Below are positions 5,460 through 49,330 of a stretch of 64,000 nucleotides of DNA, one piece after another. The stretch is from Posidoniimonas polymericola (GTDB lineage: Bacteria > Planctomycetota > Planctomycetia > Pirellulales > Lacipirellulaceae). Every line of letters begins with the position of its first letter. The first letter of the stretch is position 1. The position numbers and the translations under genes were made by a program. Where the stretch lies: assembly GCF_007859935.1 (NCBI RefSeq), contig NZ_SJPO01000002.1, positions 434,001-498,000 of the forward strand. The letters are read 5' to 3'. Below the pieces are notes generated by a model. That model was not told where the DNA came from. It did not search any database and saw only the letters and a program-made list of their open reading frames with translations.

Positions 5460-5527
5460 GGCGTGTAATCCGTTTCTAGCGAGAGTGTTTATTGGTGGCG
5501 TCTGTTTCGGTCGCTTCGCAAGTCCCC

Positions 5528-7105
5528 CTACCGAGCGGCGGCGAAAACGCGTTGAAACAAGGCGTCGACATAGAACCCGTTGGCGGCGTGAACCCGGGCG
5601 GCTTCTAGCCATTGGGGACGAAACCTCGCGACGACCGCGACGTGCAACGCCAGCAGTGCGACGAACGCACCGGCGATAGCGAGGGGCGCTGCCGCCATGC
5701 CTGGTTGAATCAGCGGGGCGACCGAGGACCGAGCGATGAAATGCTGGACCACTAGGTAACCGCCGATGTAGGTCAGGCAAAGCAGCGAGAGGGCCGCGAG
5801 CCCGCCGGTGGCCGCCCTCGCTCCGCCGCACGCCAGCACCCGCCACCCCCATGTCGTGAGGGCGAGGCACAGCAGGAAAGCCAGCACCAGCCCACCGGGC
5901 TTGCTGGACGCGTGCACCCCAGCCGTCTCCGCCACGGTCAGGTAGGCCACAGCGACCGCGGCCCCCGCGGCGACAAAGCAGGCGGCGCTCCTCGCGATGC
6001 CCGGCGTCAGCGACCTGGCGCCCCCGGTGGCCAAAGAATCAGCGACGACGCTTCCGCTGCTGAGAAAGGCGTGCGCCTTGTAGAGCGAATGGGCAATGAT
6101 GTGCAGCATGGCTGCGGAGTAGGCCCCCAGGCCGCACTGCAGCATCATGAACCCCATCTGAGCGATCGTCGAGTAGGCCAGCGCCCGCTTCACGCTGGGC
6201 TGGGTCATCATCACCACGCCGGCGAAGCAAGCCGTGAATCCGCCCACCAGGGCCAGAGTTGTCAGCGCGGCCGGGGCCGAAGCGACCAAGGGGCTCATTC
6301 GAATCATCAGGTAGCCGCCCGCGTTCACGATCCCCGCGTGCATCAACGCCGAGACCGGCGTCGGGGTCTCCATGGTGTCGGGAAGCCAAGTGTGGAACGG
6401 GAACTGCGCCGACTTCGTTGCGGCCCCGAGCATCAGCAACCAGCCAATTGCCGCCTGGACGGCAGCGGACTGCGTCGCGCCGGCCTGGCCGACGCTGTCA
6501 AACAGGGCGGACAGCTCTAGCGTCCCGAACGAGCGGAAGGTCAAGACCAGCGCGGACACCAGGAAGACGTCCCCGAGCCGGCTAATGGCGAACTTGGTCC
6601 ACGCCGCACGGTGGGCAGACTCCCGGCGCCGGTAGTGCAAGAGGAGCTGGTGCAGGCCGAAACTCGTCATCACCCAAGCAGCGAAGAACAGCAGGAGGTT
6701 GCCGGCGATCACCATCAGGGACACGGCCCCGATCGTGAAACCCAGCCAGCGAAAGTAGCGGCCCTGCAGGGCCTCGCCGTCGAGGTACCGAACCGAGAAC
6801 CGGCTTACGACCAGACCGACGAAGCTGACCAGCGTCAGCATCAACGCCGAGGCCCCGTCGTAGTACACGCTAAAGCCGAGTGGCGCGTCGTGCAGGTCCT
6901 CAAACACTGAAAAGGCAAGCGGCGCTCCGGCCGAGGCCAGGTAGGCTAACGCCAGAATGCAAGCGAGCAGCAGCTGGGCGGCCACCAAAGTGGTCGTGGC
7001 CACACGCAGCCGACCGACGTTGGCGTTCGCAACGCTCGACGGGAGAAACGCGGTGGTGAGTAGCCCCAGGACGGGGGCGATCAGCAGTGCAACAATCGTG
7101 TTCAT
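5528..7105 (-). CDS. dabB: Inorganic carbon transport membrane subunit DabB (MpsA, NuoL-like)
   Basis: Membrane partner of DabA, related to the antiporter-like NuoL/MrpA subunits. It is predicted to carry protons or sodium and drive vectorial CO2 hydration. The 525-residue product is almost entirely hydrophobic, with about a dozen or more membrane segments and NuoL-like stretches (SAQFPFHTWLPDTMETPTPV with the nearby SALMHAG, and LAYSTIAQMGFMM). The start MNTIVALLIAPVLGL at 7105 is preceded by TAGGAG. The frame is open 39 codons further upstream, but that part overlaps a terminator hairpin and looks non-coding. It is first in a minus-strand unit dabB-dabA-CA-like-cysD-cysN and is preceded by a long structured leader. 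Confidence 0.92.
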   Translation of the reverse strand: MNTIVALLIAPVLGLLTTAFLPSSVANANVGRLRVATTTLVAAQLLLACILALAYLASAGAPLAFSVFEDLHDAPLGFSVYYDGASALMLTLVSFVGLVVSRFSVRYLDGEALQGRYFRWLGFTIGAVSLMVIAGNLLLFFAAWVMTSFGLHQLLLHYRRRESAHRAAWTKFAISRLGDVFLVSALVLTFRSFGTLELSALFDSVGQAGATQSAAVQAAIGWLLMLGAATKSAQFPFHTWLPDTMETPTPVSALMHAGIVNAGGYLMIRMSPLVASAPAALTTLALVGGFTACFAGVVMMTQPSVKRALAYSTIAQMGFMMLQCGLGAYSAAMLHIIAHSLYKAHAFLSSGSVVADSLATGGARSLTPGIARSAACFVAAGAAVAVAYLTVAETAGVHASSKPGGLVLAFLLCLALTTWGWRVLACGGARAATGGLAALSLLCLTYIGGYLVVQHFIARSSVAPLIQPGMAAAPLAIAGAFVALLALHVAVVARFRPQWLEAARVHAANGFYVDALFQRVFAAAR

Positions 7106-7164
7106 GGCGAGGCTACTCCTAGTCGACGGCGACCGGGCCGCCATCCGACTTGCTCGTTGGGCAT

Positions 7165-7206
7165 AAAAAAAGCCGGGGTGAGCAAGCGATGAGCTCACAA
7201 CCCGGC
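7165..7206 (-). terminator. Intrinsic terminator in the dabB leader (T2)
   Basis: On the minus strand GCCGGG...GTGAGC pairs with GCTCAC...CCGGC across a short loop and is followed directly by seven T. It lies only 60 bases upstream of the dabB start, inside the presumed transcript. It may therefore act as an attenuator rather than as the end of an operon. Confidence 0.75.
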
Positions 7207-7352
7207 ACGTCCGTGCGGCCATGCTGACCGCCGCGGCTTAGCTCAGTTGATGTGTTTCGGTTTTCGGCGATGCGTGGCGCGGGCGTGGCTTGGCCCGCTC
7301 TTTTTCACCCATGCGACAACACGTGCCGGGAGCAAACTCTCCCGCCAGACAT

Positions 7353-8187: not shown

Positions 8188-11100
8188 TTACCTTGCGTTG
8201 GCTTGGCTCGCCGATTGCACGCGCACCCCTCTACCAAGTCCGCTTCCCAGAGCCGAATCTGACAGCGAACTGTTCTGCGCCGGTGCTCCCGGGTCGCTCG
8301 CCACATCCTCGGTGTCACCGGCCGCGACCTCGGCAGTGCTTTGGTCGAGTGAGGGCGTTCGATATCCGTAGTGCAGCAGCAGGGAAGGCTCGTCGATGGC
8401 CGCTTCGGCTGGTCGGTCGCTGAACCGGACGTCGTCTTCGCGACCCCCGGTCTGGTCGGCCAGGGCGGCGTCGACCAGCAGCACCGCCAACCCCTCCGTT
8501 GACCCGGACTCTGCCGGCGGAGCCTCTTCGTTCATCAGCTCCTCGATTGCGAACCACCGGGGCGAGCACGTCGCGTCGGAGTCGTCGGCAAGATCCAACA
8601 AGGGCAGCGCCGCGGCGACCGGCTGAGGGGAGGCGTTCCCGTAGTTGGCGCTCCAAACGGTCTGGTCGGCGTTATCAACGAGCCCATTGCCGCTGCCGTC
8701 GGCGGACGTGAAGGGGGCGACCGAGGCGTCGATTGAATCCCGCCAAATAGTGTAGTCGGCCGCGTCGACCACGCCGTTCACGTTGTAATCGCCTGGCAAC
8801 TCCGGAGGGGCAAAGATGACAAGACTGCCGGTCTCCAAGGATTCCCCCTGGTTTCCTCTCCCGTCGGTCGGCGTGAGCCGGAGCCGGTACACGCCCGATG
8901 GCAGGTGACCGGTGGCTAGCTCTGCCGTGTGGGACCAAACATAGTTGCCAGCGACGTCGTAGTCGCCTGCGGCGCCATTGGCGGCTTCGAACTCTGTGCC
9001 CAGATCCTGCCAGGTCACGCCCTGATCGCCGCTGACCTCGATACGGACCCAGTTGTCTTCCTGAGGGGTCCACTGATCAGACAGGCCCGTTCGCCAATCG
9101 TCGGTCATGGTCCAAGACACGGCGATACTGCTGCCGGGGGTGTTCACCATGGGCGAACCTGCCGTGAGTTCCGGCTCAATCATGTCCCCAAAGGACTGCA
9201 GGACTCGGACGCGGTCGATGGGAACGTTTGCTCCGGTCAGGCGGAAGTCGGCGTCGCCATTCTGGCGGTCGCCGAAAAACGCGTCGTCGAGGTAGAAGCG
9301 AGCCGTGCGCCACTCGCCACTGTCGTCGATCGCGACCGGTGTGGCGTTCTTGTAAGTACTGCTGGTTGAGTCGTACTGGAGGTTCAGCTGGCTGCCGCCT
9401 ACGTCCTGATAAACCACCTCAACGACCGCGTTCAGGCCGGCATGCACATCGTTCGCGTAGGTTGGATCAACGTTAAAATACATGTAGAGCGACTCCGGCG
9501 TTCCGGATACCGCGCGAGCGGACCGCCCGCCACTACTGGTGGCGGCCGTCTGGCCATCGCCCGCTAGCTCTATTTGACGTAATCCCCGCTCGCTGTTGAC
9601 CGAGCCGAGGGAAGCATCGACCGTCAGGGCGTTCTCCTTCAAAACGCTGATGCGACGGATCAGCAGGTTCCCATCGAGGGCCGTGACTCGGAAGTCGGCG
9701 TCCCCCTCCTGGCGATTGGCGAACCGGGCGTCGATGAGCTCGAAGCGGTGGGTCCGCCAGTTGCCGCTGCCGGTCATGACGGCGTCCGCGGCGGCGGTGT
9801 GAGGGCTGCCGACGCCATCGTACTCTAAGCTAAACTGCCCGGTCACCAGATCGAGGTACTCGACCTCGATGGTGATGTCCCTGCCATCGACTTCGTCGAT
9901 CAGAAAGCTGTCGTCAACCCCGAAGTAGAGGAAAGAGTCGTTCGAACGGATTGCGGGCGACACCGTCCCTCGCACCGGCACGTCAACGATCTCAGCAGTG
10001 CTCTCTGGCGTCTGCACGTTTGCTAGACGATCGGGTCTTTGAGGCTCCCAACGGGCCTCGCCTCCGGTGTTCGAGCGATTCTGAAGGGCGTGTTCGGTTG
10101 GCGTTGCATTGCCGATCGCCGCCTTGCCCTGCAGGGCCTGCTTTGCCGCCCCCGTGAGCGCCATCCACCAGTCGTTCGGCCGCGGGTCGCTGACTTGGTA
10201 AGTCAGGGGATTTCCTTGCGAATCGGTGTCGGGAACCGGCGGGTCGTCGGTCGCGGGGATTAGATTGGTGCCCTCGTCGTACTCGTCGAACATCCCGATG
10301 AATAGCCAGGGAGCGTCGGTCTCGTTGACCGCGTCGTTGAGCATCCGCCAGTAGAAGTCTCCGTCTTCCCGATCCCTCGACGTCGCGGCGCTGCTGTTCT
10401 GCAGGTGCGTCCACGAGAACCCTGGGAAGACGTGCGGCACGTGCGTCGTGACGCCGCTGAGAATCCCTTCGTCAGGCGCGTAGGAGTCGCCCCCCTTCCA
10501 GTAGCCCTGCCAGGGGATGTAGGCGTCGTGGAGTCCGGCGTTGCCGACCTGGAGAGACGACTCGGTGTGTCGGCCCGCCCCGATGACATAGACGCCCCGC
10601 GACTGGAAGTAGTCGATCAGGTCTTGCTGCTGCGCCGTCGAGTAACCGTTGGTGGGACCAACGTAGAGGCCAAAAATGGCCACGACCGGCTTGCCGTCCT
10701 CGCGCTGGTAGTGCGAGTCGTTGAGCATGTCGAGCCCGTTGACGTCGGTCAGGTACTCCCAGTCGTCCTTGACTTCCTGGATGACCTGATCGCGTTGGCT
10801 GGTCGAGCCGCCGTTCTGGATGTCGTACTCGATTGCCCAGGTGCGACCGGCCTTGTGCGCGGCGTCTCGGGCGTTCACCACCGGCCACTGAGGCTCGCCC
10901 GCGTAATCGCCGCCGAAGATCCTCCGCATGAAGGAATCGCGAAAACGCTGAACAAAGGCGCCATCGATGTCGTGCTCCCGCATCCATTGGAAGTGGCGGT
11001 CGACAACCGATGCGTTCGCCGAGGAGAACAAGTAGGCCTGCTCGCCCCGGGCAGTTTGTACGCCGGGGACGGGGAACAGCTCGCTGGCGTCGTAGTCGTT

Positions 11101-11835
11101 GGGGTCGGGCCACTGTTCCACGGACCAATCGCCGGGTCCGCCCCAGTGGACGTACCCCTCGTCGGCTGGATCGTTGGGGGTGTTGAACCACCCTTGGTAG
11201 CCCGCCAGCACCTTCCCCTCAAGCGTGGCGGCGTCTACCGGCCGGCTTGGCCCCGAGTAGGGCCGTTCCCACGGCGGCGACCACGCCCACTCCAAGCCGC
11301 TATCGGGAAACGGCGTGTCGGAGATCTCGACCGACAAGACCGGCGTTCCAAAAGCCACCACTCGGAAGTCGCTACCGTTAGTCCCGTTCGCGAACTGCGT
11401 GCTGTCGAGGTAGTGGTGCGAGCTGACGAACTCTTGGGTGTCGATTCTTGTCGACCGCGTGTGGAAGTCAGTTGGGTCGAAATTCTCGCGGGTGCTGTCG
11501 TACTGCACCCGCAGCGTGCCGGTCCCCTCGTCGAAGTAGTCCACCTTGACGTAGAGGGGGTCTCCTTGGGTGTAGCCAGCAAACGCGGCGTAGGGGTTCA
11601 GGTTGTAGTAGAGGTAGGCCGGACCCACAGCGACTGCTTCGCCAGCGCGGGCTTGCAGGCTCCAAGTCCCGTCGCCGGCGTTTGAGGAGGGCGTGTTGAA
11701 CGTCAGCGACGCCAGCAGCAACCGGCCCTCGAGCTGTTCAACACGGCTCTGGCGGTGCGATTGCGTTCGGCGAACGCTGGACGCGGGGCGATAAACTTGC
11801 GCAATTCGTTTCAATACCGAGCTGCTGAGGGACAT
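8188..11835 (-). CDS. Secreted GH71/99-like glycoside hydrolase with three repeat modules and dockerin
   Basis: A 1,215-residue secreted protein. It opens with the planctomycete LEPR-xLL-type export motif (VEQLEGRLLLAS near residue 33). A GH71/99-like domain, the endo-alpha-mannosidase-related barrel, follows at about 205-595 (VLAGYQGWFNTPND; GFSWTHL). A module of about 110 residues occurs three times, once before and twice after the catalytic domain; its marks are a YxYFNV strand, an LxYDS strand and a final NGxADFR. A type I dockerin lies near nt 8690-8790 (GDYNVNGVVDAADYTIWRD). I preferred the ATG at 11835, which has AGAAGAAGAG upstream, over a GTG 10 codons earlier. It follows a PEP-CTERM gene on the same strand and probably shares its operator-bearing promoter. 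Activity on alpha-mannan is inference. Confidence 0.85.
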   Translation of the reverse strand: MSLSSSVLKRIAQVYRPASSVRRTQSHRQSRVEQLEGRLLLASLTFNTPSSNAGDGTWSLQARAGEAVAVGPAYLYYNLNPYAAFAGYTQGDPLYVKVDYFDEGTGTLRVQYDSTRENFDPTDFHTRSTRIDTQEFVSSHHYLDSTQFANGTNGSDFRVVAFGTPVLSVEISDTPFPDSGLEWAWSPPWERPYSGPSRPVDAATLEGKVLAGYQGWFNTPNDPADEGYVHWGGPGDWSVEQWPDPNDYDASELFPVPGVQTARGEQAYLFSSANASVVDRHFQWMREHDIDGAFVQRFRDSFMRRIFGGDYAGEPQWPVVNARDAAHKAGRTWAIEYDIQNGGSTSQRDQVIQEVKDDWEYLTDVNGLDMLNDSHYQREDGKPVVAIFGLYVGPTNGYSTAQQQDLIDYFQSRGVYVIGAGRHTESSLQVGNAGLHDAYIPWQGYWKGGDSYAPDEGILSGVTTHVPHVFPGFSWTHLQNSSAATSRDREDGDFYWRMLNDAVNETDAPWLFIGMFDEYDEGTNLIPATDDPPVPDTDSQGNPLTYQVSDPRPNDWWMALTGAAKQALQGKAAIGNATPTEHALQNRSNTGGEARWEPQRPDRLANVQTPESTAEIVDVPVRGTVSPAIRSNDSFLYFGVDDSFLIDEVDGRDITIEVEYLDLVTGQFSLEYDGVGSPHTAAADAVMTGSGNWRTHRFELIDARFANRQEGDADFRVTALDGNLLIRRISVLKENALTVDASLGSVNSERGLRQIELAGDGQTAATSSGGRSARAVSGTPESLYMYFNVDPTYANDVHAGLNAVVEVVYQDVGGSQLNLQYDSTSSTYKNATPVAIDDSGEWRTARFYLDDAFFGDRQNGDADFRLTGANVPIDRVRVLQSFGDMIEPELTAGSPMVNTPGSSIAVSWTMTDDWRTGLSDQWTPQEDNWVRIEVSGDQGVTWQDLGTEFEAANGAAGDYDVAGNYVWSHTAELATGHLPSGVYRLRLTPTDGRGNQGESLETGSLVIFAPPELPGDYNVNGVVDAADYTIWRDSIDASVAPFTSADGSGNGLVDNADQTVWSANYGNASPQPVAAALPLLDLADDSDATCSPRWFAIEELMNEEAPPAESGSTEGLAVLLVDAALADQTGGREDDVRFSDRPAEAAIDEPSLLLHYGYRTPSLDQSTAEVAAGDTEDVASDPGAPAQNSSLSDSALGSGLGRGVRVQSASQANAR

Positions 11836-11891
11836 CGGGCTCTTCTTCTGTGTCAATCCGACCACAGGCCGCTGCTTGGCCGTTGAATAGA

Positions 11892-13331: not shown

Positions 13332-15326
13332 ATGCCGCTCAGTTCGTTCGACTACGCCATACTGGCCGCCTACCTGCTGATTCTGCTAACCGTTGGCCTG
13401 TGGCTGCGGCGTCGCGCCTCGGCGGGACTTGACCACTACTTGCTTGCGGGGCGAGCGACGCCGTGGTGGCTGTTGGGCGTCTCGGGCGTGATGGACTTCT
13501 GGGACCTCGCCGGGTCGGTCATCATTGTCTCATTCCTTTACCTGATGGGGCCGGCGGGGCTCTTCATCGAGTTTCGCGGCGGCGCCGTGCTGATCTTGTC
13601 CGTCGTCATGCTGTGGACGGGCAAGTGGCGACGCCGCTCTGAGTGCCGAACCGGCGCCGAGTGGATGCGGTTCCGGTTCGGTGATGGACCCGCCGGCAGG
13701 CTCGCCCAATCGGCTCGGGCCCTGGCTGGGATCGCCTTGTTTATCGGCCTGGTTGCCTACGCGACGAAGGCGCTCGCCGTGTTCCTGTCCTCAATCGTGC
13801 CTCTCGCGCCGTCGCAGATCGGTTTAGCGGTTGTCTCGCTCGTCGCAGCGTACAGCGTCTTTTCGGGGTTCTACGGCCTTGTCGCTATCCAGGGAATCCA
13901 GTTCGTCTGCGTGTTGATCTCGACGGTCTCGGTGATCAGTCTCGCGGTCCTAGCGGTTCCTCCCCTCACTGAGCTTCGCGAGATCGCAATCGAAGTGACT
14001 GGGAACCCCGGTTGGGGGCAACTCGCGCCGGGCGACTCCTTGTCCCTGCCGCCGCTGTACGCCTCTTACGAGCCGCTATTGTTTCTTGCAACTGTCTACC
14101 TCGTGCGGAACGTGCTCTTCGGAATGGGGGCGGGCGACGACCCAAAGTGCTTCGCCGCGAAGCGGGACGCGGAATGCCCGAAGCTGCTGCTGCTCTGGGT
14201 TTCGCTGATCTCGCTGCGGTGGCCAACCATGATGGCGTTCGCGGTCCTCGCGATCGTTATCGCCCACGGCGACCAGCAGCGCGGAGTAGACTACAAGTTG
14301 GCCGCGCAATCCGTGCGGACGCACTACCCTGATGATGAGTGGGCACGCGTCGTCGCGAGCATCGGCAGCGCCCCAGACGCGCAGCCACGCGAGCTTCAGG
14401 CGTCGTTGCTTAGAACGCTCGGAGAGAATTGGCCGCAGCGTCTGGCCGAAGTGACCGAACAGGGTTTGCTGGACCCAGAGAGGCTCATACCCGTTGTGCT
14501 GGAACGGGCGGTCCCAACCGGCCTGCGGGGGCTCATTCTCGTCTCATTGCTGGCGGCGGCCACCGCGGGCTTGAGCGGTTGGCTCAACCAGGCTGCTGGG
14601 TTGTTTGCGAATGACATCTACCTCGTGTGGTTTCGGCCTAGGGCCGGGGCCACGGAGCAGATTGCCGCGACCTGGGCTGTCGTCCTGGCCGTCGTCGGCC
14701 TAGGCTACTTGCTCGCCTTCTCTTCGCGGACCGTGAACGAAATCTGGTCGTGGCTGACGATGGGACTGGGGAGTGGGCTGATTGCCGCTCAGATGCTGCC
14801 GTTGTACTGGCGCCGATTCAATGGTGTTGGCTTTGCTGCCGGATTGGCGGGGGGAATCGCCGCGGCGGCGGCCCATCGGATTGCGGTCCCGGGTCTGCCG
14901 CAAGGCTTCGCCTCGCTGAACGAGGAGTGGGTGCTTCTGTCCATCGTGCTGACGGCGGGAATGGCCGCTTCGATCGTAGGAACGCTGGCGTCACCGATGA
15001 CCGACGCGTCGGTATTGCTGCGGTTCTACCGAAAGACGCTGCCCTTCGGGGCTTGGGGCGTCGAACGCGAATCGCTGACTACCGAGCAACAACGGGAGCT
15101 ATCGCGGCATCACACCCGCGAGTTGTGCGCCCTGCCGTTTGCGCTGGTCTACCAAATCATGATCTTCCTGAGCCCGATGCTCATGTTGATCGGCGACTGG
15201 TCCGCGGCCGCCGCCTGTGGAGCCGCCGCGGCCGTCGCCATCGCCCTCCTGTGGGCGATCTACTTCTCTGGGCTCAACGCGGAAGCAGAACTTGTAGGTC
15301 AGATCCAGCGTAGCGAACCGGATTGA
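13332..15326 (+). CDS. Sodium:solute symporter (SSS family)
   Basis: A 664-residue inner-membrane protein of the SSS family, which moves sugars, amino acids or carboxylates into the cell with sodium. It has about 13-14 membrane segments and the family's N-terminal pattern (FDYAILAAYLLILLTVGLWL, HYLLAGRATPWWLLGVSG, where the glycine-rich turn follows the first loop). There is a long soluble insert at roughly residues 315-395. The substrate cannot be read from the sequence, but the locus suggests a mannan-derived or related sugar. It is divergent from the PEP-CTERM gene and converges with the regulator, whose stop lies only 7 bases away. A second SSS protein is encoded at 54612. Confidence 0.88.
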   Translation: MPLSSFDYAILAAYLLILLTVGLWLRRRASAGLDHYLLAGRATPWWLLGVSGVMDFWDLAGSVIIVSFLYLMGPAGLFIEFRGGAVLILSVVMLWTGKWRRRSECRTGAEWMRFRFGDGPAGRLAQSARALAGIALFIGLVAYATKALAVFLSSIVPLAPSQIGLAVVSLVAAYSVFSGFYGLVAIQGIQFVCVLISTVSVISLAVLAVPPLTELREIAIEVTGNPGWGQLAPGDSLSLPPLYASYEPLLFLATVYLVRNVLFGMGAGDDPKCFAAKRDAECPKLLLLWVSLISLRWPTMMAFAVLAIVIAHGDQQRGVDYKLAAQSVRTHYPDDEWARVVASIGSAPDAQPRELQASLLRTLGENWPQRLAEVTEQGLLDPERLIPVVLERAVPTGLRGLILVSLLAAATAGLSGWLNQAAGLFANDIYLVWFRPRAGATEQIAATWAVVLAVVGLGYLLAFSSRTVNEIWSWLTMGLGSGLIAAQMLPLYWRRFNGVGFAAGLAGGIAAAAAHRIAVPGLPQGFASLNEEWVLLSIVLTAGMAASIVGTLASPMTDASVLLRFYRKTLPFGAWGVERESLTTEQQRELSRHHTRELCALPFALVYQIMIFLSPMLMLIGDWSAAAACGAAAAVAIALLWAIYFSGLNAEAELVGQIQRSEPD

Positions 15327-15333
15327 GGCTGCA

Positions 15334-16449
15334 CTACCGAGACGCCTGGCGGCCTTTAGCTCTGGCGACAGGAGGGCCGGACGATTCTCCCTCGAGCAGC
15401 GGCAGGTTGGTTGGCTCGTAGAGCAACGGGTGCTTCCACTGACTCTTCGCGCCCCCCTTTTCGATCCAGTCGAGGCAGTTGCTGATGAACTCGGCGGCGT
15501 TGGGGCGTTCAAACGAGGTGATCGAGGGACTCAGGTACCTGCCGAGTCCCTCGTTGTCGATGGTGCACACGGACAGGTCGGTTCCGATTTCGATGCCGCG
15601 CGCCCTGGCTCCACGCACCACGCCGAGAGCCGCCGGCAGCGTAACGCAGTAGACGGCCGTCGCCCGGCCACGGTTCGACGCGAGCCAAGCATCAGCCGCC
15701 GACATCGCCCAGTGGAAAATGTTCTCTTCTGCTGAGCAAGGCTGATCGTGGAGTACTCCGTCGGGCAGTCCACGTTCGCTGAGCCACTCGCGCCAGGCGT
15801 CAATCCGCTTCTCGGTAATCGCGTTGTGGCCCTGGACATTCAAGCAGTCGATGCGGCTGTGCCCCAACTCGGCCAGGTGGTCCAGGAGAACAAACGTCTC
15901 GCGGGGCGGGAACAGCACGACCGAAGGCACGCCCAGGTCGGTCAGATCCTCTGACAGCGACACCAGTCCATCGGCGTTGGCGAAGAGGTTCGAGGTCCAT
16001 TCGGGAATCGGCTCCGAGCTCGTGACCAGGAAGACCCCGTCGTACTCCCGAAGCGACTCGGTAATGATGGGATCATCCCAGTGGAGGTAGTTTTGCACTC
16101 GCACTCGAGCCTTGTGCGTTCGAGCCACGTGCTCCGATACCGAAAGCCACTGCTGAAGGTCGGGTGAGAACGAATCGGGCGCTAGCGATGGCGTCAAGAA
16201 CGCGATCTCGACGGAGGGGCGCTCCTGGGCGACGCGCTTCAACCGCGGGCGGCAGTTGGGAGGCCGATCGACCAGCCCCCGCCTCTCGAGTTCTCCGAGC
16301 GCCTTACGCAGCGTGACGCGGCTCACGCCGCATTCATCGGCTAGGTCGCGCTCGGCCGGCAGGCCCCCTCGGGAATAGTCTCCGTTCGCGATGCGTCGCT
16401 CTAGCAGCTCGGTTACGTGAGTAAGTTTTGACTTCGCCATCGACCGCAT
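15334..16449 (-). CDS. GntR-HTH / LacI-type sensor hybrid transcription regulator
   Basis: A 371-residue one-component regulator. The N-terminal winged helix-turn-helix of the GntR type spans about residues 8-75 (GGLPAERDLADECGVSRVTL). It is followed by a periplasmic-binding-protein-like sugar sensor at about 80-345 (SVEIAFLTPSLAPDSF; GVPSVVLFPPRET; ELGHSRIDCLNVQ; ITSFERPNAAEF). This matches the AraR-type group of GntR regulators with LacI-like effector domains, which commonly repress sugar genes until the sugar binds. It sits in the middle of the locus whose three promoters carry the same palindrome, so it is the prime candidate to bind TACCAnnnnTGGTA. An alternative ATG lies three codons downstream (16440). 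Confidence 0.88.
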   Translation of the reverse strand: MRSMAKSKLTHVTELLERRIANGDYSRGGLPAERDLADECGVSRVTLRKALGELERRGLVDRPPNCRPRLKRVAQERPSVEIAFLTPSLAPDSFSPDLQQWLSVSEHVARTHKARVRVQNYLHWDDPIITESLREYDGVFLVTSSEPIPEWTSNLFANADGLVSLSEDLTDLGVPSVVLFPPRETFVLLDHLAELGHSRIDCLNVQGHNAITEKRIDAWREWLSERGLPDGVLHDQPCSAEENIFHWAMSAADAWLASNRGRATAVYCVTLPAALGVVRGARARGIEIGTDLSVCTIDNEGLGRYLSPSITSFERPNAAEFISNCLDWIEKGGAKSQWKHPLLYEPTNLPLLEGESSGPPVARAKGRQASR

Positions 16450-17192
16450 TTCTCATTCAGCGTCCGCAGCATCAGCCCGACTGACATCGGGGGCGCTCTA
16501 GGTGGACAAACAATTCGACAGAAGATGCGCCCGTGCGGCCCGACCGCGAAGCGTACCCATGGCAGCTTTGGCGCAACGACGGGTCGGCCCGACTTCGGCG
16601 CCCCGGCTTCCCTAGCCCTCTCTTTTTTTCGGCAGTGTACTCATTGAAGTCAATGGAGTCTTGCCGAGCCCGCGGACCCCGTTGGGCAAGTGGGTCGTCG
16701 AACGCAACACCGAGCCTTCCTTCCTGGCCCCGCTTCCGAAAGAAATTCCTTTCTTTCTGATCGCAGGATGGTTGCGTTGTGTACCATTTTTGGTATAGTT
16801 GCGTCTGGCGGTGGGTCGCACGCGTTCTCATACTCACGACCTGCAGACCTGCTTTTCACTGTCTTTCGACCACTAGCTTCGGTCTTTCGATCAAGATTTG
16901 CTCTCCACTCTCAATGCGTCGTCATTCGGGCCTTAGCCCTCAGGCAACGCTGGCGGCGACCCGGCAACCAACCCATTCGATGGAGCTCGTCCAGCGGCCC
17001 AAGGGGCAGTCGGCCAAAGGCGAACTCGCAGGACAGGGGCAAGATCGTCCCACGGCGATTTTGCCCCTGCATTTCGTAGCCAACCACTTCTAAGGCCGTC
17101 ATTTCAAGCCTTGCCCACGCCGCCTTGCGCCTGCGTCGATGATTCGAGCGGGGCTTGCGGGGAACTCGCTCTTACGAAGGAGACCCACTCCG
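16450..17192. promoter_or_regulatory. Intergenic region with operator and long leader
   Basis: This stretch of 743 bases lies between the divergent regulator and the DUF1559 gene. It holds the promoter-operator at 16772-16799 and then about 390 bases of apparent untranslated leader. Open frames on both strands lack recognisable protein features. A T-run near 16622 has no convincing stem before it. Confidence 0.5.
16772..16799 (+). promoter_or_regulatory. Promoter 2 with palindromic operator TACCAnnnnTGGTA
   Basis: TTGCGT (16772-16777) and TATAGT (16794-16799) are 16 bases apart. The palindrome TACCATTTTTGGTA occupies 16782-16795, four bases after the -35 box and overlapping the first two bases of the -10 box, exactly as at 13085 and 24336. 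It points to the DUF1559-lipoprotein-sulfatase genes. Confidence 0.8.
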
Positions 17193-18251
17193 ATGCTTGA
17201 CGAGAATTGGGATGCCCAGATGAGAGTCGCCACTCGGAGGCGAGCCGCGTTTCGCCGCGGGTTTACCCTCGTTGAGCTACTTGTGGTGATAGCCATAATC
17301 GGGGTGCTGGTGGCGTTGCTGCTCCCCGCGGTCCAGGCCGCGCGGGAATCGGCGCGACGCGCCCAGTGCATCAATCAAATGAAGCAGTTCGGGCTGGCGA
17401 TCCTTAGCTACGAGACCTCCAACCGTGCATTCCCCCCCGGTTCGGTGACCTACGGGCTGTGGGGATTCCGCAATCCGGACCAGCATCCGTTCGACTGCCC
17501 TCGTTCCGAGTCCTCCAAGCACGATTGCAGCGGCGAGAACTGGGCGATTGAGTCGCTGCCCTACCTCGAGCAGCAAGCCCTCTACGACTTGTACGACCAC
17601 GACGAGCACAACCTGGAGGAAGGCGACCCGGACGGAGACGGGCAGATCAACCAAAAGGTCCGCGACGCCCCGTTGGGCATCATGCTGTGTCCCACCGACA
17701 CGTTCGCGAACGAATGGGGCGGCGCCATCGCCGCTGGTTCCTACAAGGCGGTCGCCGGCGTTATTACTCAGCAGGGAGGCTGGATCAACTGGACAAGCCC
17801 GTACGACGGTTCTGGCAACCCGATGCCCGACAAAATGAAAGAGGTTTGGAGCAGACGTGGGCTGTTCCACAACACCGGGGCGCCGGGCCTCGCCCCGTCG
17901 GAGATGCGGCACGTAACTGACGGAACGAGCAAGACCTTCATGGTGGGCGAGTTTCATGCTACCGGCGCCAACCCGCCGAGGCCTGCTTACTGGGCGCTGT
18001 CACAGCGATGGTACGCACGCGGTGAGGCCTTTGCCGACCCCCTTCTGAGGACGACGGACCTCGACAGCTGCCTCGAGAAGCTTGCTACCGTTCCGAAGTG
18101 GGCTTGCAGCCGGGCGTTTGGATCGACCCATGCCGGGAGCGGGGGCAATTGGCTGCGCATTGATGGCTCGGTCGCGTACGTCACGACGGATCTCAACGGA
18201 GAAATCTACGAAGCATTCGCAACCATTGCCGGCGAGGACGGGCTTCAATGA
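17193..18251 (+). CDS. DUF1559 prepilin-like surface protein
   Basis: A 352-residue member of the DUF1559 family, expanded in planctomycetes. It has a type IV prepilin-like N-terminal methylation/helix signal (GFTLVELLVVIAIIGVLVAL then LLPAVQAARESARR) and the C-terminal family motif with a conserved His and DG (FGSTHAGSGGNWLRIDGSVA). The exact role is unknown; pseudopilin-like filaments or glycan-binding surface fibres have been proposed for such proteins. The ATG at 17193 was chosen over an in-frame one at 17139 because AAGGAG lies about 10 bases before it. The stop overlaps the start of the lipoprotein gene (ATGA), so the two are translationally coupled. Confidence 0.9.
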   Translation: MLDENWDAQMRVATRRRAAFRRGFTLVELLVVIAIIGVLVALLLPAVQAARESARRAQCINQMKQFGLAILSYETSNRAFPPGSVTYGLWGFRNPDQHPFDCPRSESSKHDCSGENWAIESLPYLEQQALYDLYDHDEHNLEEGDPDGDGQINQKVRDAPLGIMLCPTDTFANEWGGAIAAGSYKAVAGVITQQGGWINWTSPYDGSGNPMPDKMKEVWSRRGLFHNTGAPGLAPSEMRHVTDGTSKTFMVGEFHATGANPPRPAYWALSQRWYARGEAFADPLLRTTDLDSCLEKLATVPKWACSRAFGSTHAGSGGNWLRIDGSVAYVTTDLNGEIYEAFATIAGEDGLQ

Positions 18252-18787
18252 CGCGTCTCCGAAGAAGCCCCGCTCGGGCCCGCGTTCGTATCAACCAACG
18301 GGAGCTAGGTGGCGCTACGCGTCGCGACCCGATCGCCAGCGGCCACTTCATGCCCGCTGCGTTGGGCGTTCTATTGCTGCTGGGCTCGGGCTGCAGCCCG
18401 TCGAAGTTCGATTTCGCCGACGTCGAGGGCCGCGTGCTTCTCGATGGCGAGCCTGTCAGCGATGCGAAGGTCGTTTTCATGCCGGTCGGCATGAATGAGG
18501 AAGGCGAATCGGGCCCCTATTCTCACGGGGTCACCGACTCAGACGGACGATACGCGCTGAAGACGCAAGACGAGGATGCCCGGAGCGGGGCCGTTGTCGG
18601 TCGGCACCGGGTAATCGTAAGCACGAAGCAGGCGCACCTAGACCCCAACACGATGGATCGCGAAATCATTGACGTCCCCGAGTCAATCCCGTGGAAATAC
18701 ACCTACTACAAGGAGACGCCGCTGGCGGTGGAGGTTCCGCCTGGCGGGACAAAGGACGCCGACTTTGTCCTGGAGTCTCCGCGCTAG
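18248..18787 (+). CDS. Small lipoprotein with carboxypeptidase-regulatory-like domain
   Basis: A 179-residue protein with a lipobox LLGSGCS (Cys49) after a hydrophobic stretch, and then a transthyretin-like/carboxypeptidase-regulatory fold (VEGRVLLDGEPVSDAKVVFM; SDGRYALKT; GRHRVIVS). This type is typically found next to DUF1559 genes in planctomycetes. The start at 18248 overlaps the upstream stop. An internal ATG at 18350 would put the lipobox Cys at residue 15 but would lose the basic N-terminus, so I keep the first. The role is unknown; it probably lies in the outer envelope. Confidence 0.8.
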   Translation: MTRLRRSPARARVRINQRELGGATRRDPIASGHFMPAALGVLLLLGSGCSPSKFDFADVEGRVLLDGEPVSDAKVVFMPVGMNEEGESGPYSHGVTDSDGRYALKTQDEDARSGAVVGRHRVIVSTKQAHLDPNTMDREIIDVPESIPWKYTYYKETPLAVEVPPGGTKDADFVLESPR

Positions 18788-18823: not shown

Positions 18824-21559
18824 ATGCCGCTCCAAACTAGAATCAGTCAACAGAGCGGTGGTGTGAGAAGGCCCGCCTGCGGTCCGGCCCCTGCGTGGAC
18901 CTGTCGGGCCGCGGTTGCGGCGGTAGCTCTGTTGGCGGCGCTCGCTTCAGGGATCGCCGCAACCGCGGGCCAGCAGCCGCGGCAAACGCACCCAAACGTC
19001 GTCATCATCCTGGTCGACGACATGGGCTACGGCGACCCTGGCTGCTTTAATCCTGAGTCACGCATCTCTACCCCAAATATCGATGGGCTTGCCGTGGCGG
19101 GCATGAAATTCCTCGACGCTCACGCCCCGGGTCCGCTGTGTCACCTCTCTCGGTATGGGTTGCTAACGGGCCGCTACCCATTCCGCACCGACGTGACACG
19201 CTGGCCAACGGAGCCAGTGATCGAAGACGGACAAGAAACGCTCGCGACCCTCGCGAAACGTGCTGGGTATCACACCGCCATAGTCGGCAAATGGCACCTT
19301 GGGTTCAAGGAGCGGGGCTACGATCAGCCGCTCCACGGAGGTCCGGTAGACCACGGCTTTGAGACGTTCTTCGGCATGCGCGCGTCGACCGACATTCCCC
19401 CCTACTTCTACATCCGCGGCGACCGGGCGGTCGAAGTTCCGACCGACTCGGTCGAGGATGAGTTCTCCCCGGACTGGTCACCGATCCAAGGCCGTAGGCG
19501 ACTTGGCGGAAAAATCGCGCCAGGCATGCAGCTAGACCAGACGCTCCCAAGATTCACCGACGAGGCCATTGCGGTCATTCGTGAACACGGCAAGAGCGGC
19601 AGGCAAGGGCCGCTGCTCCTCTACCTGGCGTACCCCGCGCCCCACACTCCGTGGCTCCCGTCGGCAGAGCATCGGGGGCAGAGCGACGCGGGCCTCTACG
19701 GCGATTTCGCCGAGATGGTCGATTCCGAAATCGGGCGCGTTACGTCTGAGTTGAAGGACTCAGGGATCTGGGACGACACCCTGATTGTATTCGCATCAGA
19801 CAACGGCCCGTGCTGGTCCGAAAAGGATGTGCAGCGGTTTGGCCATGATTCGGCCGGCGGACTCCGGGGCATGAAGGGCGACGCCTGGGAGGCCGGCCAC
19901 CGGATGCCGTTCATCGTGTCATGGCCGCGAGTCGTCGAGCCCGGCTCCTCGACAGAGCAGACCGTCTGCTTCACGGACCTGCTGGCGACGTTCGCGAGCA
20001 TCGTCGGAGAAAAACTCGACGACCAAATCGCTGTGGACAGCTACAACCTCTTGCCGGTGCTCCTGGGGTTTCATCCAGACGAGCGGCCCATACGACCACC
20101 GGTGGTTACCCAAGCAGGGAGCGCTCCAGAGATGTTCGCGATCCGGGGCGGCAAGTGGAAGCTCATCACAGGCCTTGGGTCCGGAGGATTCTCGAAGCCG
20201 AAACGGATTGCCCAAGATAGCGATGGGCCATCCGGGCAGTTGTACGATCTCGATGCCGATCTGCGTGAAGAGCGAAACCTGTACGCGGAACGGCCCGGCG
20301 TCGTCGAGAGAGCGGTCGAGGCCCTCAACCTCACCAGGGCTCAGCCGACGCCGCGCACCTCGCTGATCCCTGGTGCGGTCGACGCCAGCGGACTCGATAG
20401 GAAGGTGATGTGCGGCTACCAGGCGTGGTTCAATACTCCCGACGATGGAAGCGCTCTTGGGTGGAAGCACTGGGCTCGTCGCGCAGGAGACCGGTTCGGG
20501 CCTGGCAATGCAACGGTCGATCTGTGGCCGGACGTGAGCGAACTAGACGCCGATGAGCGATTCGCGACCGGGTTCACGCTGGCCGACGGGACGCCGGCCG
20601 AAGTGTACAGCAGCGTCCATCCCAAGACGGTCCTCCGCCACTTCGGTTGGATGCAAGAGCATGGGATCGATGGCGTCTTCCTGCAACGATTCGCGAACGG
20701 CCTGAACGAAGGCCCCGTGCTTGAAAACAAGAACTCCGCACTGAGGAGCGTCCGCGGCGCGGCTCTCGCAACCGGCCGGGTCTACGCAGTCATGTACGAC
20801 CTTTCGGGTTTGCGAGCCGGGGAGACCCAGCGCGTCTACCGGGACTGGGAGCGACTCTCGGAAGAAGAGCGGTTGACCTCCGATTCGCAGTACCTGTCTC
20901 ACAACGGCAAGCCACTTGTAGCTGTGTGGGGCATTGGTTTCCACGACGGCGGCAAGCCACGAGACTATTCACTGGAAGAATGCCGGACGCTCGTCTCGCG
21001 TCTCAAGCAAAGCGGCTGCGCCGTCATGCTCGGTGTGCCGACAGGCTGGAGAACGTTGTCTCGCGACTCCGTCAAAGACGCCGCGCTGCACGAGATCATC
21101 CTGATGGCGGATGTCGTGAGTCCGTGGACCCCAGGCCGATACCGCGATCGCAACGGCGTGCGCGAGCACGCGAGGAATTGGTGGCAGCCGGATGTCGAGT
21201 GGTGCGAGAAGCACGAAGTCGACTATTTACCCGTCGTTTTCCCCGGGTTTAGTTGGCACAATCTGACGGGAGCAAAGCTCGCGGAGATACCGCGCGAGGG
21301 AGGACGTTTCCTCTGGTCGCAGTTCGTCGCGGCGAAGAAAGCCGGCGCGTCGATGGCGTATGTCGCCATGTTTGATGAAGTCGATGAGGGGACAGCAATC
21401 TTCAAGTGCACGAACAACCCGCCCGTGGGCGAGGGAGTTGACTTCCTGACCTACGAGGGGCTGCCCACCGACCACTACCTGTGGCTTACCGGTGAGGCAG
21501 GCCGCATGTTCCGCGACGAGCAGCCGGCGTCGGCAAGGCTGCCTGTGAGGGAGCGATGA
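18824..21559 (+). CDS. Sulfatase fused to GH71/99-like domain
   Basis: A 911-residue exported protein with a signal segment at about 27-48. A type I sulfatase domain spans about 55-510 (VVIILVDDMGYGD, GKWHLGF, FASDNGP). A GH71/99-like domain follows at about 520-905 (KVMCGYQAWFNTPDDGS; LPVVFPGFSWHNL). The sulfatase maturation site reads CHLSRYGLLTGR (Cys106), with Leu where the C-x-P/A-x-R rule for formylglycine formation expects Pro or Ala. If matured, one polypeptide would remove sulfate and act on the same glycan (inference). The second domain is related to the catalytic domain at 8188. The gene follows the lipoprotein by 36 bases and precedes the GH92 gene. Confidence 0.9.
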   Translation: MPLQTRISQQSGGVRRPACGPAPAWTCRAAVAAVALLAALASGIAATAGQQPRQTHPNVVIILVDDMGYGDPGCFNPESRISTPNIDGLAVAGMKFLDAHAPGPLCHLSRYGLLTGRYPFRTDVTRWPTEPVIEDGQETLATLAKRAGYHTAIVGKWHLGFKERGYDQPLHGGPVDHGFETFFGMRASTDIPPYFYIRGDRAVEVPTDSVEDEFSPDWSPIQGRRRLGGKIAPGMQLDQTLPRFTDEAIAVIREHGKSGRQGPLLLYLAYPAPHTPWLPSAEHRGQSDAGLYGDFAEMVDSEIGRVTSELKDSGIWDDTLIVFASDNGPCWSEKDVQRFGHDSAGGLRGMKGDAWEAGHRMPFIVSWPRVVEPGSSTEQTVCFTDLLATFASIVGEKLDDQIAVDSYNLLPVLLGFHPDERPIRPPVVTQAGSAPEMFAIRGGKWKLITGLGSGGFSKPKRIAQDSDGPSGQLYDLDADLREERNLYAERPGVVERAVEALNLTRAQPTPRTSLIPGAVDASGLDRKVMCGYQAWFNTPDDGSALGWKHWARRAGDRFGPGNATVDLWPDVSELDADERFATGFTLADGTPAEVYSSVHPKTVLRHFGWMQEHGIDGVFLQRFANGLNEGPVLENKNSALRSVRGAALATGRVYAVMYDLSGLRAGETQRVYRDWERLSEEERLTSDSQYLSHNGKPLVAVWGIGFHDGGKPRDYSLEECRTLVSRLKQSGCAVMLGVPTGWRTLSRDSVKDAALHEIILMADVVSPWTPGRYRDRNGVREHARNWWQPDVEWCEKHEVDYLPVVFPGFSWHNLTGAKLAEIPREGGRFLWSQFVAAKKAGASMAYVAMFDEVDEGTAIFKCTNNPPVGEGVDFLTYEGLPTDHYLWLTGEAGRMFRDEQPASARLPVRER

Positions 21560-21735: not shown

Positions 21736-24021
21736 ATGAAGAACAGAACTCCCGTCTGCCTGCTGCTGCTTTCAGCCGCCCTCGCTTTGATCGCGATTCC
21801 GTGTAGCTTTGCGGAAGAGCAACCGCCCAGCAGGCTGACCCCCTTCGTCGATCCGCTGGTCGGTTCTGACGCCCATGGCCACGTTTTCGTAGGCGCCAGT
21901 GTGCCGTTCGGCGCGGTGCAACTCGGTCTGACGAACTTTCACCAAGGGTGGGACTGGTGCTCCGGCTACCACTTCTCCGACGACGTCGCGGTGGGTTTCT
22001 CGCACTTACACCTCAGCGGGACGGGCATTCCCGATTTAGGGGACATCGTCATCGCCCCCTTTGTCGGGGAGGTCAGCGTTGAGCGCGGCAGCCACGAGGC
22101 GCCGGAACCCGGCTACGCGTCACGCTACTCGCACGATCAGGAAACTGCCAAGGCGGGCTACTACGCGGTCACGCTGCTGGACGACGGTATCAGGGCCGAA
22201 CTCACAGCGACGGAGCGGGTTGGCTGGCACCGCTACACTTTCCCGGCGGGCGTGATCCCACGCATCGCTCTGGACCTTGAGTTTGAGAACGGGAACGGCC
22301 GAGCGGTCGACACGGGTATGAGAGTGATAGACGCCGACAAAGTCGAGGGGCGCCGATTCTCCACCGGGTGGGCGAAAGACCAACGGGTGTTTTTTGCGTT
22401 GCAGGCGTCAGAGCCAATCGCGTCGGTCGAATTGTTCGGCAAGGGTGAAAGGATCAGCGAGTCGGATGGCGGCGCTAAGAACAACCCCGATGTAGCGGTG
22501 ATGACTTTCGCTGAGGGGGTTAGGACCATCCTGTTGAAGGTGGGCGTCTCGCCCGTCAGCGAGGAGGGGGCGATGGCGAACATCCGCGCCGAAGCGCCGG
22601 GGTGGGATTTCGACGCCGCTGCGGCGGCCGCCGATTCTGCTTGGGAGAACGCCCTGAGTCGAGTCCGGTTCGATTCGTCGGACCAATCGCAGGTGCGGAC
22701 ATTCTACACGGCTCTCTACCACACGATGATCGCGCCTGTTCTGTACAACGACGCCAGCGGCGACTACCTCGGCGCCGATAAAGAGGTTCGACGCGAAGCC
22801 GGCCACGAGAACTACTCGATTTTCTCGCTGTGGGACACTTACCGGGCAGCCCACCCGCTGCTGACGCTGACCCAGCCTCAGCGGGTGCCCCAAATGGTAA
22901 ACTCCATGCTGGCCATCAACCGCCAGCAGGGGAAACTTCCGGTTTGGCACCTGCTCGGGAATGAGACCGACACCATGGTCGGCTACCACGCCGTGCCGGT
23001 CATTGTTGACGCGATCCTCAAGGGCTTTGAAGGCATCGACGCCGAAGAAGCGTTCGCCGCAGTCAAGGCGACCGCCATGCGCGACGAGCGCGGGCTGAAG
23101 TTCATCAAGGAACGGGGCTACATCCCGGCCGACGCCATGCGCGAGTCGGTGGCTCTCGCCATGGAGTACGCCATCGACGATTGGGCGATCGCCCAGCTAG
23201 CGAGGCGCCTTGGCCAACAAGAAGACTACGACTACTTCCTCGAGCGGTCGCAGCACTTCCGGAAATACTTTGACGAAGAAACAGGGTTCATGCGCGGGAA
23301 ACGATCCGACGGATCGTGGAACGCCCCTTTCGACCCCTTCTTCTCGAAGCACCGCGCAGACGACTACTGTGAAGGGAACGCCTGGCAGTACCTGTGGCTC
23401 GTGCCGCACGACCCCGAGGCGCTCATTGAGTTGTTGGGCGGCGCGGAACGCTTCGCGACGCGTCTCGACGAGCTCTTCGAGCAGGCGCCAACAAAGAACG
23501 CCGAGGCCTCGCTCGATATGTCGGGGTTCATCGGCCAATACGTTCACGGCAACGAGCCTAGTCACCACATCGCCTACCTCTATCCATACGCCGGCCAGCA
23601 GTGGAAGACAGCGGAACGCGTTCGTCAGATCATGGATCGAATGTATTCAGACCAACCCGACGGCCTCTGCGGGAACGAGGACTGCGGCCAGATGTCGGCG
23701 TGGTACGTCTTCTCGGCCATGGGGTTCTACCCGGTCGACCCGGTCGGCGGGCAGTACGTCTTGGGGAGCCCCATCGCTGATCGTGTGACAATCGAGCTAG
23801 ACGGGGGCGAGAGTTTTCGAGTTGTCGCGAACAACAACACGCCCAGCAACGTGTACCTCCAATCCGCCGTCCTGAACGGCAAGCCGCTTGAAGGTCCGTT
23901 CCTTTCGCATCGGGAAATCGTCTCAGGTGGAGAACTTGTGTTGGAAATGGGCCCAGAGCCGAATCGAACGCTCTGGCACGCAGCGATGGCGCGTGCTCAC
24001 AGGCCTGACAGACGCAACTGA
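21736..24021 (+). CDS. GH92 exo-alpha-mannosidase
   Basis: A 761-residue protein of glycoside hydrolase family 92, calcium-dependent exo-acting alpha-mannosidases. It has a signal peptide (CLLLLSAALALIAIPCSFA), the N-terminal domain (DPLVGSDAHGHVFVGASVPF, HLSGTGIPDLGDI), and the (alpha/alpha)6 catalytic domain with GNETDTMVGYH near residue 413 and GNEDCGQMSAWYVFSAMGFY near 647, both hallmark GH92 stretches holding acidic catalytic residues. The length is usual for the family. It lies 176 bases after the sulfatase fusion and is probably transcribed with it. With the GH71/99-like domains it is the main pointer to an alpha-mannan substrate. Confidence 0.93.
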   Translation: MKNRTPVCLLLLSAALALIAIPCSFAEEQPPSRLTPFVDPLVGSDAHGHVFVGASVPFGAVQLGLTNFHQGWDWCSGYHFSDDVAVGFSHLHLSGTGIPDLGDIVIAPFVGEVSVERGSHEAPEPGYASRYSHDQETAKAGYYAVTLLDDGIRAELTATERVGWHRYTFPAGVIPRIALDLEFENGNGRAVDTGMRVIDADKVEGRRFSTGWAKDQRVFFALQASEPIASVELFGKGERISESDGGAKNNPDVAVMTFAEGVRTILLKVGVSPVSEEGAMANIRAEAPGWDFDAAAAAADSAWENALSRVRFDSSDQSQVRTFYTALYHTMIAPVLYNDASGDYLGADKEVRREAGHENYSIFSLWDTYRAAHPLLTLTQPQRVPQMVNSMLAINRQQGKLPVWHLLGNETDTMVGYHAVPVIVDAILKGFEGIDAEEAFAAVKATAMRDERGLKFIKERGYIPADAMRESVALAMEYAIDDWAIAQLARRLGQQEDYDYFLERSQHFRKYFDEETGFMRGKRSDGSWNAPFDPFFSKHRADDYCEGNAWQYLWLVPHDPEALIELLGGAERFATRLDELFEQAPTKNAEASLDMSGFIGQYVHGNEPSHHIAYLYPYAGQQWKTAERVRQIMDRMYSDQPDGLCGNEDCGQMSAWYVFSAMGFYPVDPVGGQYVLGSPIADRVTIELDGGESFRVVANNNTPSNVYLQSAVLNGKPLEGPFLSHREIVSGGELVLEMGPEPNRTLWHAAMARAHRPDRRN

Positions 24022-48612: not shown

Positions 48613-49330
48613 TCCTGTGCCGCCTGAAGCTTTGTCGACTGCCCCTTTTGAGCTCGGGCAGTGGGATCCGGGAGAAGCCCCTAGTATACACGGATTGACG
48701 CAAATTAGGCACTTCTGAGGTGGGTTTTTGCCCTGACGCCAGCGGTCGGAAGTGAACGCGTGGCTGCTTGGTCGTGGTGCGACCAAACCTGCTGGTGGTA
48801 CGTGAATTGACGCTACGTTACGCGATTACTCCCTCTCTTATTCCGGCCGGGCCTACCCGTCGGAATACGAGTCCGCCCTGCAGGCCGCCCTTGCTAGTCT
48901 GAGGGCTTTTTTCCCTCAGGAACTCGGCGGGACCACGTTCGAGATCGCCGTCGGCGCGGTCGATTGGGCTCAGACCAGCCACCCCAGCAACTGGTATTAG
49001 ATCAACCCAGGCGCCTGCGGGTTTGAGGTCGGCAGGTATCGAGATTCGGTCACCGCCGACGCTGCTGCCTCGACCCGCGGGCGATCCTACGATTGCGAGA
49101 GCCGCTGGCTCAACCACAGGGACGCAGTCCAGACCTGCACAGACCGAATTTCTGGTCCGGGGATAACGGCTCAGTAGTGGCTAGTTCGAAAGCTGAAGTC
49201 GCGCAACGAGGACCACGGGTCCTCTGCCCGCGGCGTCTGCTGCGCCAGTGCGGCAAGCATGATTGCTACGGAAGCCACGCCGCGGTCTTGTCGGGTTAGT
49301 CCCGAGCGAGTCCCTGGAGGGCCGAGGAGG
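48613..49330. other. Intergenic region, possible protein fragment
   Basis: No full gene is supported. On the plus strand an open frame from 48806 to a TAG near 49000 lacks a start codon but looks protein-like (YSGRAYPSEYESALQAALAS, GGTTFEIAVGAVDWAQ), so it may be a remnant. A 7-bp hairpin CTGAGGG/CCCTCAG around a T-rich loop lies near 48899-48919. Confidence 0.35.

Follow-up and report, generated by a model that had tools for sequence, protein, structure and literature searches.

In the planctomycete Posidoniimonas polymericola, a single open reading frame joins a complete S1 sulfatase to a second complete domain that is predicted to adopt the fold of glycoside hydrolase family 99 (GH99), and the same architecture recurs in five other genomes. 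The gene lies in a window of 64,000 nucleotides (contig NZ_SJPO01000002.1, positions 434,001 to 498,000), the whole stretch of DNA that was analysed and in which all coordinates without a locus name are given. We lean, by a modest degree, towards reading its product as a secreted two-domain enzyme that would desulfate a sulfated alpha-manno-type polysaccharide and then cleave it internally, with trimming by a GH92 enzyme. The least expected feature of the fusion is the activation motif of its sulfatase, which departs from the consensus and was missed by the earlier note on this DNA. The parts of the gene are as follows:

18824-21559, plus strand: fusion gene, S1 sulfatase and GH99-like domain, 911 amino acids (open reading frame, Pfam, recurrence in five other genomes)
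18824-18970, plus strand: signal-peptide-like N-terminus, residues 1-49 (sequence read by eye)
18986-20332, plus strand: S1 sulfatase module, residues 55-503 (Pfam and solved relatives)
19139-19153, plus strand: activation motif C106-H-L108-S-R110 (+2 residue Leu, not Pro or Ala)
20333-20386, plus strand: short inter-domain linker, residues 504-521, about 18 residues (comparison of the fusions)
20387-21538, plus strand: predicted GH99-fold (GH71/99-like) domain, residues 522-905 (Pfam, structural model, fold search)
21377-21388, plus strand: E852-x-x-E855, aligned to the catalytic Glu pair of BtGH99 (alignment and conservation)

The frame opens with ATG and continues for 911 codons with zero internal stops, and Pfam, structural modelling and recurrence bear out the original observation that one uninterrupted frame encodes a whole sulfatase and a whole GH71/99-like domain. 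Among 197 genomes searched in the order, the fusion is present in G464, G543, G468 and G504, the last being Bythopirellula polymerisocia Pla144 (L082, L137), all members of the same family as P. polymericola; among 392 searched across the phylum, a complete fusion was recovered from G092, which belongs to a different class and whose protein is 59% identical over residues 31-907. The architecture is thus present in six separately assembled genomes from five genera and two classes, with every frame open from end to end and with linkers that have diverged in sequence and are similarly short. Because six genomes share an open fusion with such a linker, the junction at about nt 20333-20386 is real. 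The two genes are neighbours in Verrucomicrobiota, so that one lost stop could join them and the fusion could be an assembly or sequencing artefact of two adjacent genes; the earlier note had itself named as a weakness a sequencing error hiding a stop near nt 20380. The homologous fusions refute this: complete frames in six separate assemblies, with diverged linkers of similar length, rule out both a lost stop and faulty assembly, and we assign that explanation a negligible probability. Purifying selection acts on both halves: between G543 and G504 the sulfatase has a dN/dS of 0.14 and the hydrolase half one of 0.09, and between P. polymericola and G464, a pair for which dS is high, the values are 0.14 and 0.18, respectively. 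A full-length AlphaFold2 model built from six sequences was too poor (pLDDT 53, pTM 0.43) to place the two clefts relative to each other.

The C-terminal 391 residues were modelled separately by AlphaFold2 on an alignment of 126 sequences, with a mean pLDDT of 97.1 and a pTM of 0.94. The possibility that the second domain does not fold as a hydrolase was examined in this way and proved not to be the case, the model predicting a GH99 barrel. The best 36 matches in a fold search of the PDB are all GH99 structures (BxGH99, BtGH99 and human MANEA), the best with an E-value of 4.8e-19 and a TM-score of 0.70 and with identities of 16-18% to the GH99 structures, whereas GH71 structures first appear at ranks 38-39 with TM-scores of 0.45-0.48; the domain is therefore GH99-like rather than GH71-like as judged from its predicted fold, and a GH71 affiliation was ruled out by the same search. 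The GH99 part of the earlier designation 'GH71/99-like' thus stands and the GH71 part falls away: 'glycoside hydrolase family 71/99-like' is the NCBI label for such proteins, and GH99-like describes the modelled domain better. A literature search on 'GH71/99-like' returned nothing useful. The Pfam profile Glyco_hydro_99 (PF16317) matches residues 785-894 (E 8.2e-8) with 32.2 bits, just short of its curated cut-off of 33 bits, which is exceeded by relatives encoded separately from a sulfatase in L105 (37.8 bits) and L140 (34.3 bits). BtGH99 is the sole sequence match of the domain in the PDB, and the alignment of MFDEVDEGT with SFNEWHEGT places E852 and E855 at the positions of the E-x-x-E that forms the catalytic Glu pair of GH99; each of the two residues is at least 90% conserved across the 126 relatives. 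In a separate architecture from one genus, proteins of about 727 amino acids carry a GH99-like domain and, after it, one resembling Mala_s_1 (PF22701; L007:604-2784, minus strand, and also L008-L012).

The N-terminal module matches Sulfatase (PF00884) over residues 57-395 with an E-value of 4.9e-50, covering positions 1-300 of the 301 in the profile. Its nearest solved relatives, at about 30% identity, are S1_15A (9bas, 209 bits), 7oze and S1_15B (9bau). The nucleophile Cys, the Arg, Lys and His, and the metal ligands that define S1 are all present, and across the six fusions there is no variation at the ten catalytic and metal residues, which were assigned from homology to AtsA. Membership of S1_51 was ruled out by the low score against OpSulf1 (9FVT, S1_51), 63.6 bits against 209 for S1_15A.

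The activation motif CHLSR fails the consensus [CS]-x-[PA]-x-R. Among 4058 sulfatases, the +2 residue was Pro in 87%, Ala in 369 and any other residue in less than 1%, and rare exceptions to the consensus have been recorded (PMC5066984). A DNA pattern for CHxSRYG sulfatases found matches in 20 of the 197 order genomes and three more in the phylum sample, with Met at +2 in 11, Val in five, Leu in five and Pro in two; with three verrucomicrobial members added, the CHxSR sulfatases group in one 26-member clade (support 100/100), in which +2 is Leu, Met or Val in 22 members and Pro is kept in four. The P. polymericola genome holds 31 other readable sulfatase motifs, with Pro at +2 in 25, Ala in two and another residue in four (CCQTR, CSNTR, CGVSR and CATNR, in the sulfatases L204, L212, L229 and L231), along with nine genes with a formylglycine-generating enzyme (FGE) domain.

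These observations bear on whether the sulfatase half works as an enzyme at all. It might remain unmodified and lack formylglycine-dependent sulfatase activity; its role would then be that of a module binding sulfated chains, with the hydrolase as the sole enzyme. The rarity of residues such as Leu, Met or Val at +2 would suit such a role, as would the impairment of iduronate-2-sulfatase by a Pro-to-Leu change at this position in mice, a change that causes severe disease in people (PMC10185571). We consider this improbable: the Cys, the Arg and each of the metal ligands are invariant, purifying selection acts on this half as on the hydrolase half, four clade members retain Pro, and the genome contains both further sulfatases in which +2 is unusual and the nine FGE-domain genes. 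Conservation of the site thus argues for sulfatase activity, and the motif argues against ordinary maturation. A bolder proposal, which we put forward tentatively and regard as rather doubtful, is that the C-H-[M/L/V]-S-R sulfatases make up an S1 clade of their own that would be active without the Pro or Ala considered necessary for formylglycine formation, either because an FGE paralogue, permissive or dedicated, matures them or because they function without formylglycine, and that their joining to a GH99-like domain would constitute a desulfate-then-cut enzyme assembled independently in planctomycetes. The clade, which has kept everything except the proline, is a natural test case for the strictness of the activation motif.

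Elsewhere, the two proteins are encoded side by side. The sulfatase (63%) and hydrolase (62%) reading frames abut or overlap slightly in the verrucomicrobial MAG VER1 (L105), the two genes lie about 55 nt apart in an Opitutales MAG (L140), and in Haloferula rosea (L146) both are on the same strand, separated by a further sulfatase gene; in L119 a double sulfatase of 940 amino acids is encoded immediately upstream of the hydrolase. A Mariniblastus MAG encodes the order sulfatase, GH99-like domain, sulfatase in one frame of 1406 amino acids (L154:4402-8619, plus strand); its sulfatases are of a different S1 type (28%), and this fusion appears to have arisen independently. Within the order, a CHxSR sulfatase is present in 11 of 15 genomes with this hydrolase clade versus nine of 182 others, and in six of ten versus nine of 182 once the five fused genomes are removed (Fisher p 1e-5, kinship ignored). 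An adjacent same-strand sulfatase accompanies nine of 23 loci of this clade versus four of 53 other GH71/99-like loci (p 0.002), a split that was made after the tree had been seen. Because sulfatase and hydrolase are fused in several lineages and neighbours elsewhere, a functional coupling between them is supported. In L077, a protein of 1054 amino acids with a 3-keto-disaccharide hydrolase domain fuses a sulfatase to GH43 directly upstream of a GH71/99-like gene (L077:2534-7046, plus strand).

In a quick tree of the hydrolase domain, a clade of all fused domains was rejected (p-AU 0.0003), and a clade of the family's fusions with the unfused G555 copy was not (p 0.35). The sulfatase tree did not reject the fusions as one clade (p 0.30). 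Two joinings, or a later exchange, are likely, though this falls short of proof. The Mariniblastus fusion and the PbSulf1-GH195 protein described below, with other sulfatase types, would add further independent events, and GH99-like domains thus seem to have been joined to sulfatases more than once.

The substrate is suggested by the surroundings of the gene, in which the following features were found:

8188-11865, minus strand: second GH99-like protein, 1225 amino acids (38% identity; kept in fusion-bearing relatives)
13332-15326, plus strand: sodium:solute symporter, probable sugar importer (kept in G464)
15334-16449, minus strand: GntR-type regulator with a sugar-binding domain (kept in G464)
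17139-18787, plus strand: two genes upstream of the fusion, one DUF1559 pilin-like (also in G464 and G459) and one small and lipoprotein-like
21736-24021, plus strand: GH92 family protein, next gene downstream

The GH92 gene starts 176 nt 3' of the fusion, and GH92 is a family of exo-alpha-mannosidases. The protein at 8188 had been described as a dockerin protein of the same hydrolase family; the family assignment is upheld by the 38% identity, but for the dockerin Pfam gives only a match below threshold (E 0.04, 14.6 bits, cut-off 22.9). A named relative occurs in Rubripirellula obstinata (L083), and a third GH99-related gene of the P. polymericola genome (L233:4395-5921, minus strand; G000 contig C4) scores 54.2 bits, above the Pfam GH99 cut-off, and ends in weak matches to dockerin and PEP-CTERM. 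The window further contains a DabA inorganic carbon transporter beside a proton-antiporter-type partner (2895-7222, minus strand) and an open frame of 3549 amino acids (38137-48786, minus strand).

Similar gene sets occur in other genomes. G459, a member of the family without the fusion, has the order DUF1559, small gene, GH92, one gene, GH71/99-like, and GH92 also accompanies the hydrolase family in Akkermansiaceae (L085/L086). Plasmid pPP5 of Persicobacter psychrovividus (Bacteroidota) carries a single run of SusC/SusD, a GH71/99-like gene, a sulfatase whose motif is CAPAR and three GH92 genes (L234:1456-23974, plus strand), a plasmid-borne candidate for a sulfated-mannan locus; the idea that its sulfatase forms an S1_51 bridge to GH195 was unsupported, 9FVT being absent from its matches at E 1e-30. 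Since GH92 lies within 6 kb of this hydrolase family in two of 80 named loci, a mannan substrate is inferred from few loci, and sulfated alpha-mannan is our best guess for this lineage rather than for the whole family. That rarity also favours a different account, in which both domains are active and coupled on another sulfated glycan and the neighbouring GH92 belongs to a different pathway. The sulfatase, which is nearest to the S1_15 type rather than the mannan-specific S1_51, is compatible with such a glycan, and the sulfatase-GH43 fusion of L077 suggests that other sugars are processed there. The exclusively GH99 alpha-mannan enzymes at the top of the fold search, and the company of GH92 in G459, Akkermansiaceae and Persicobacter, speak against it, and we regard it as possible, with clearly less confidence than the alpha-manno-type reading.

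On that favoured alpha-manno-type reading, the protein would be exported, as its signal-peptide-like N-terminus suggests, and the S1 sulfatase would take one sulfate off the polysaccharide, after which the tethered GH99-fold domain would use Glu852 and Glu855 to cut internally at or beside the desulfated sugar. The GH92 encoded next door would trim the released oligosaccharides, and the fusion would serve to hold two consecutive steps together outside the cytoplasm. The earlier note had suggested 'processive desulfation-then-cleavage'; the order is plausible, having been demonstrated for the analogous PbSulf1-GH195 (PMC13063451), whereas nothing in sequence or structure supports 'processive', and 'sequential' fits better. 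Such a reading would extend desulfation followed by cutting in one chain to the planctomycetes, a sulfatase-rich group.

The two domains normally occur as separate proteins, as had been noted, but fusions of sulfatases with glycoside hydrolases have precedents (PMC6388578, PMC13063451). S1_7 is known with GH10 or GH32, and S1_15 with GH29 (PMC6388578); these combinations, like the present fusion, place an S1 sulfatase and a glycosidase in one chain and are known from PVC bacteria, but involve hydrolase families other than GH99-like and presumably other substrates. The GH99 endo-alpha-mannosidases and mannanases (BtGH99, BxGH99, human MANEA) share the predicted fold and the E-x-x-E pair with the fusion domain, which differs from them in its low identity and in a Pfam score at or just below the cut-off. 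The closest counterpart is PbSulf1-GH195 of Polaribacter sp. Hel1_33_78, in which an S1_51 sulfatase is joined to a hydrolase distantly related to GH99. It desulfates C6-sulfated alpha-1,3-mannan and then cleaves the chain, with GH92 and a second sulfatase completing the breakdown (Krull et al. 2026, PMC13063451). In Ochrovirga pacifica, OpSulf1 and OpGH195 each have a gene of their own, and action of the sulfatase has to come first (PMC13063451). Both systems have a sulfatase ahead of a GH99-related domain, a GH92 in the locus and split-gene relatives, the hydrolase halves being likened by description; they differ in that the planctomycete sulfatase is not close to S1_51, and in that the published system has T9SS and SusCD where the planctomycete locus has a symporter and a GntR regulator. 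The two-step enzyme logic is therefore already published, and what differs here is the type of sulfatase and its unusual activation motif.
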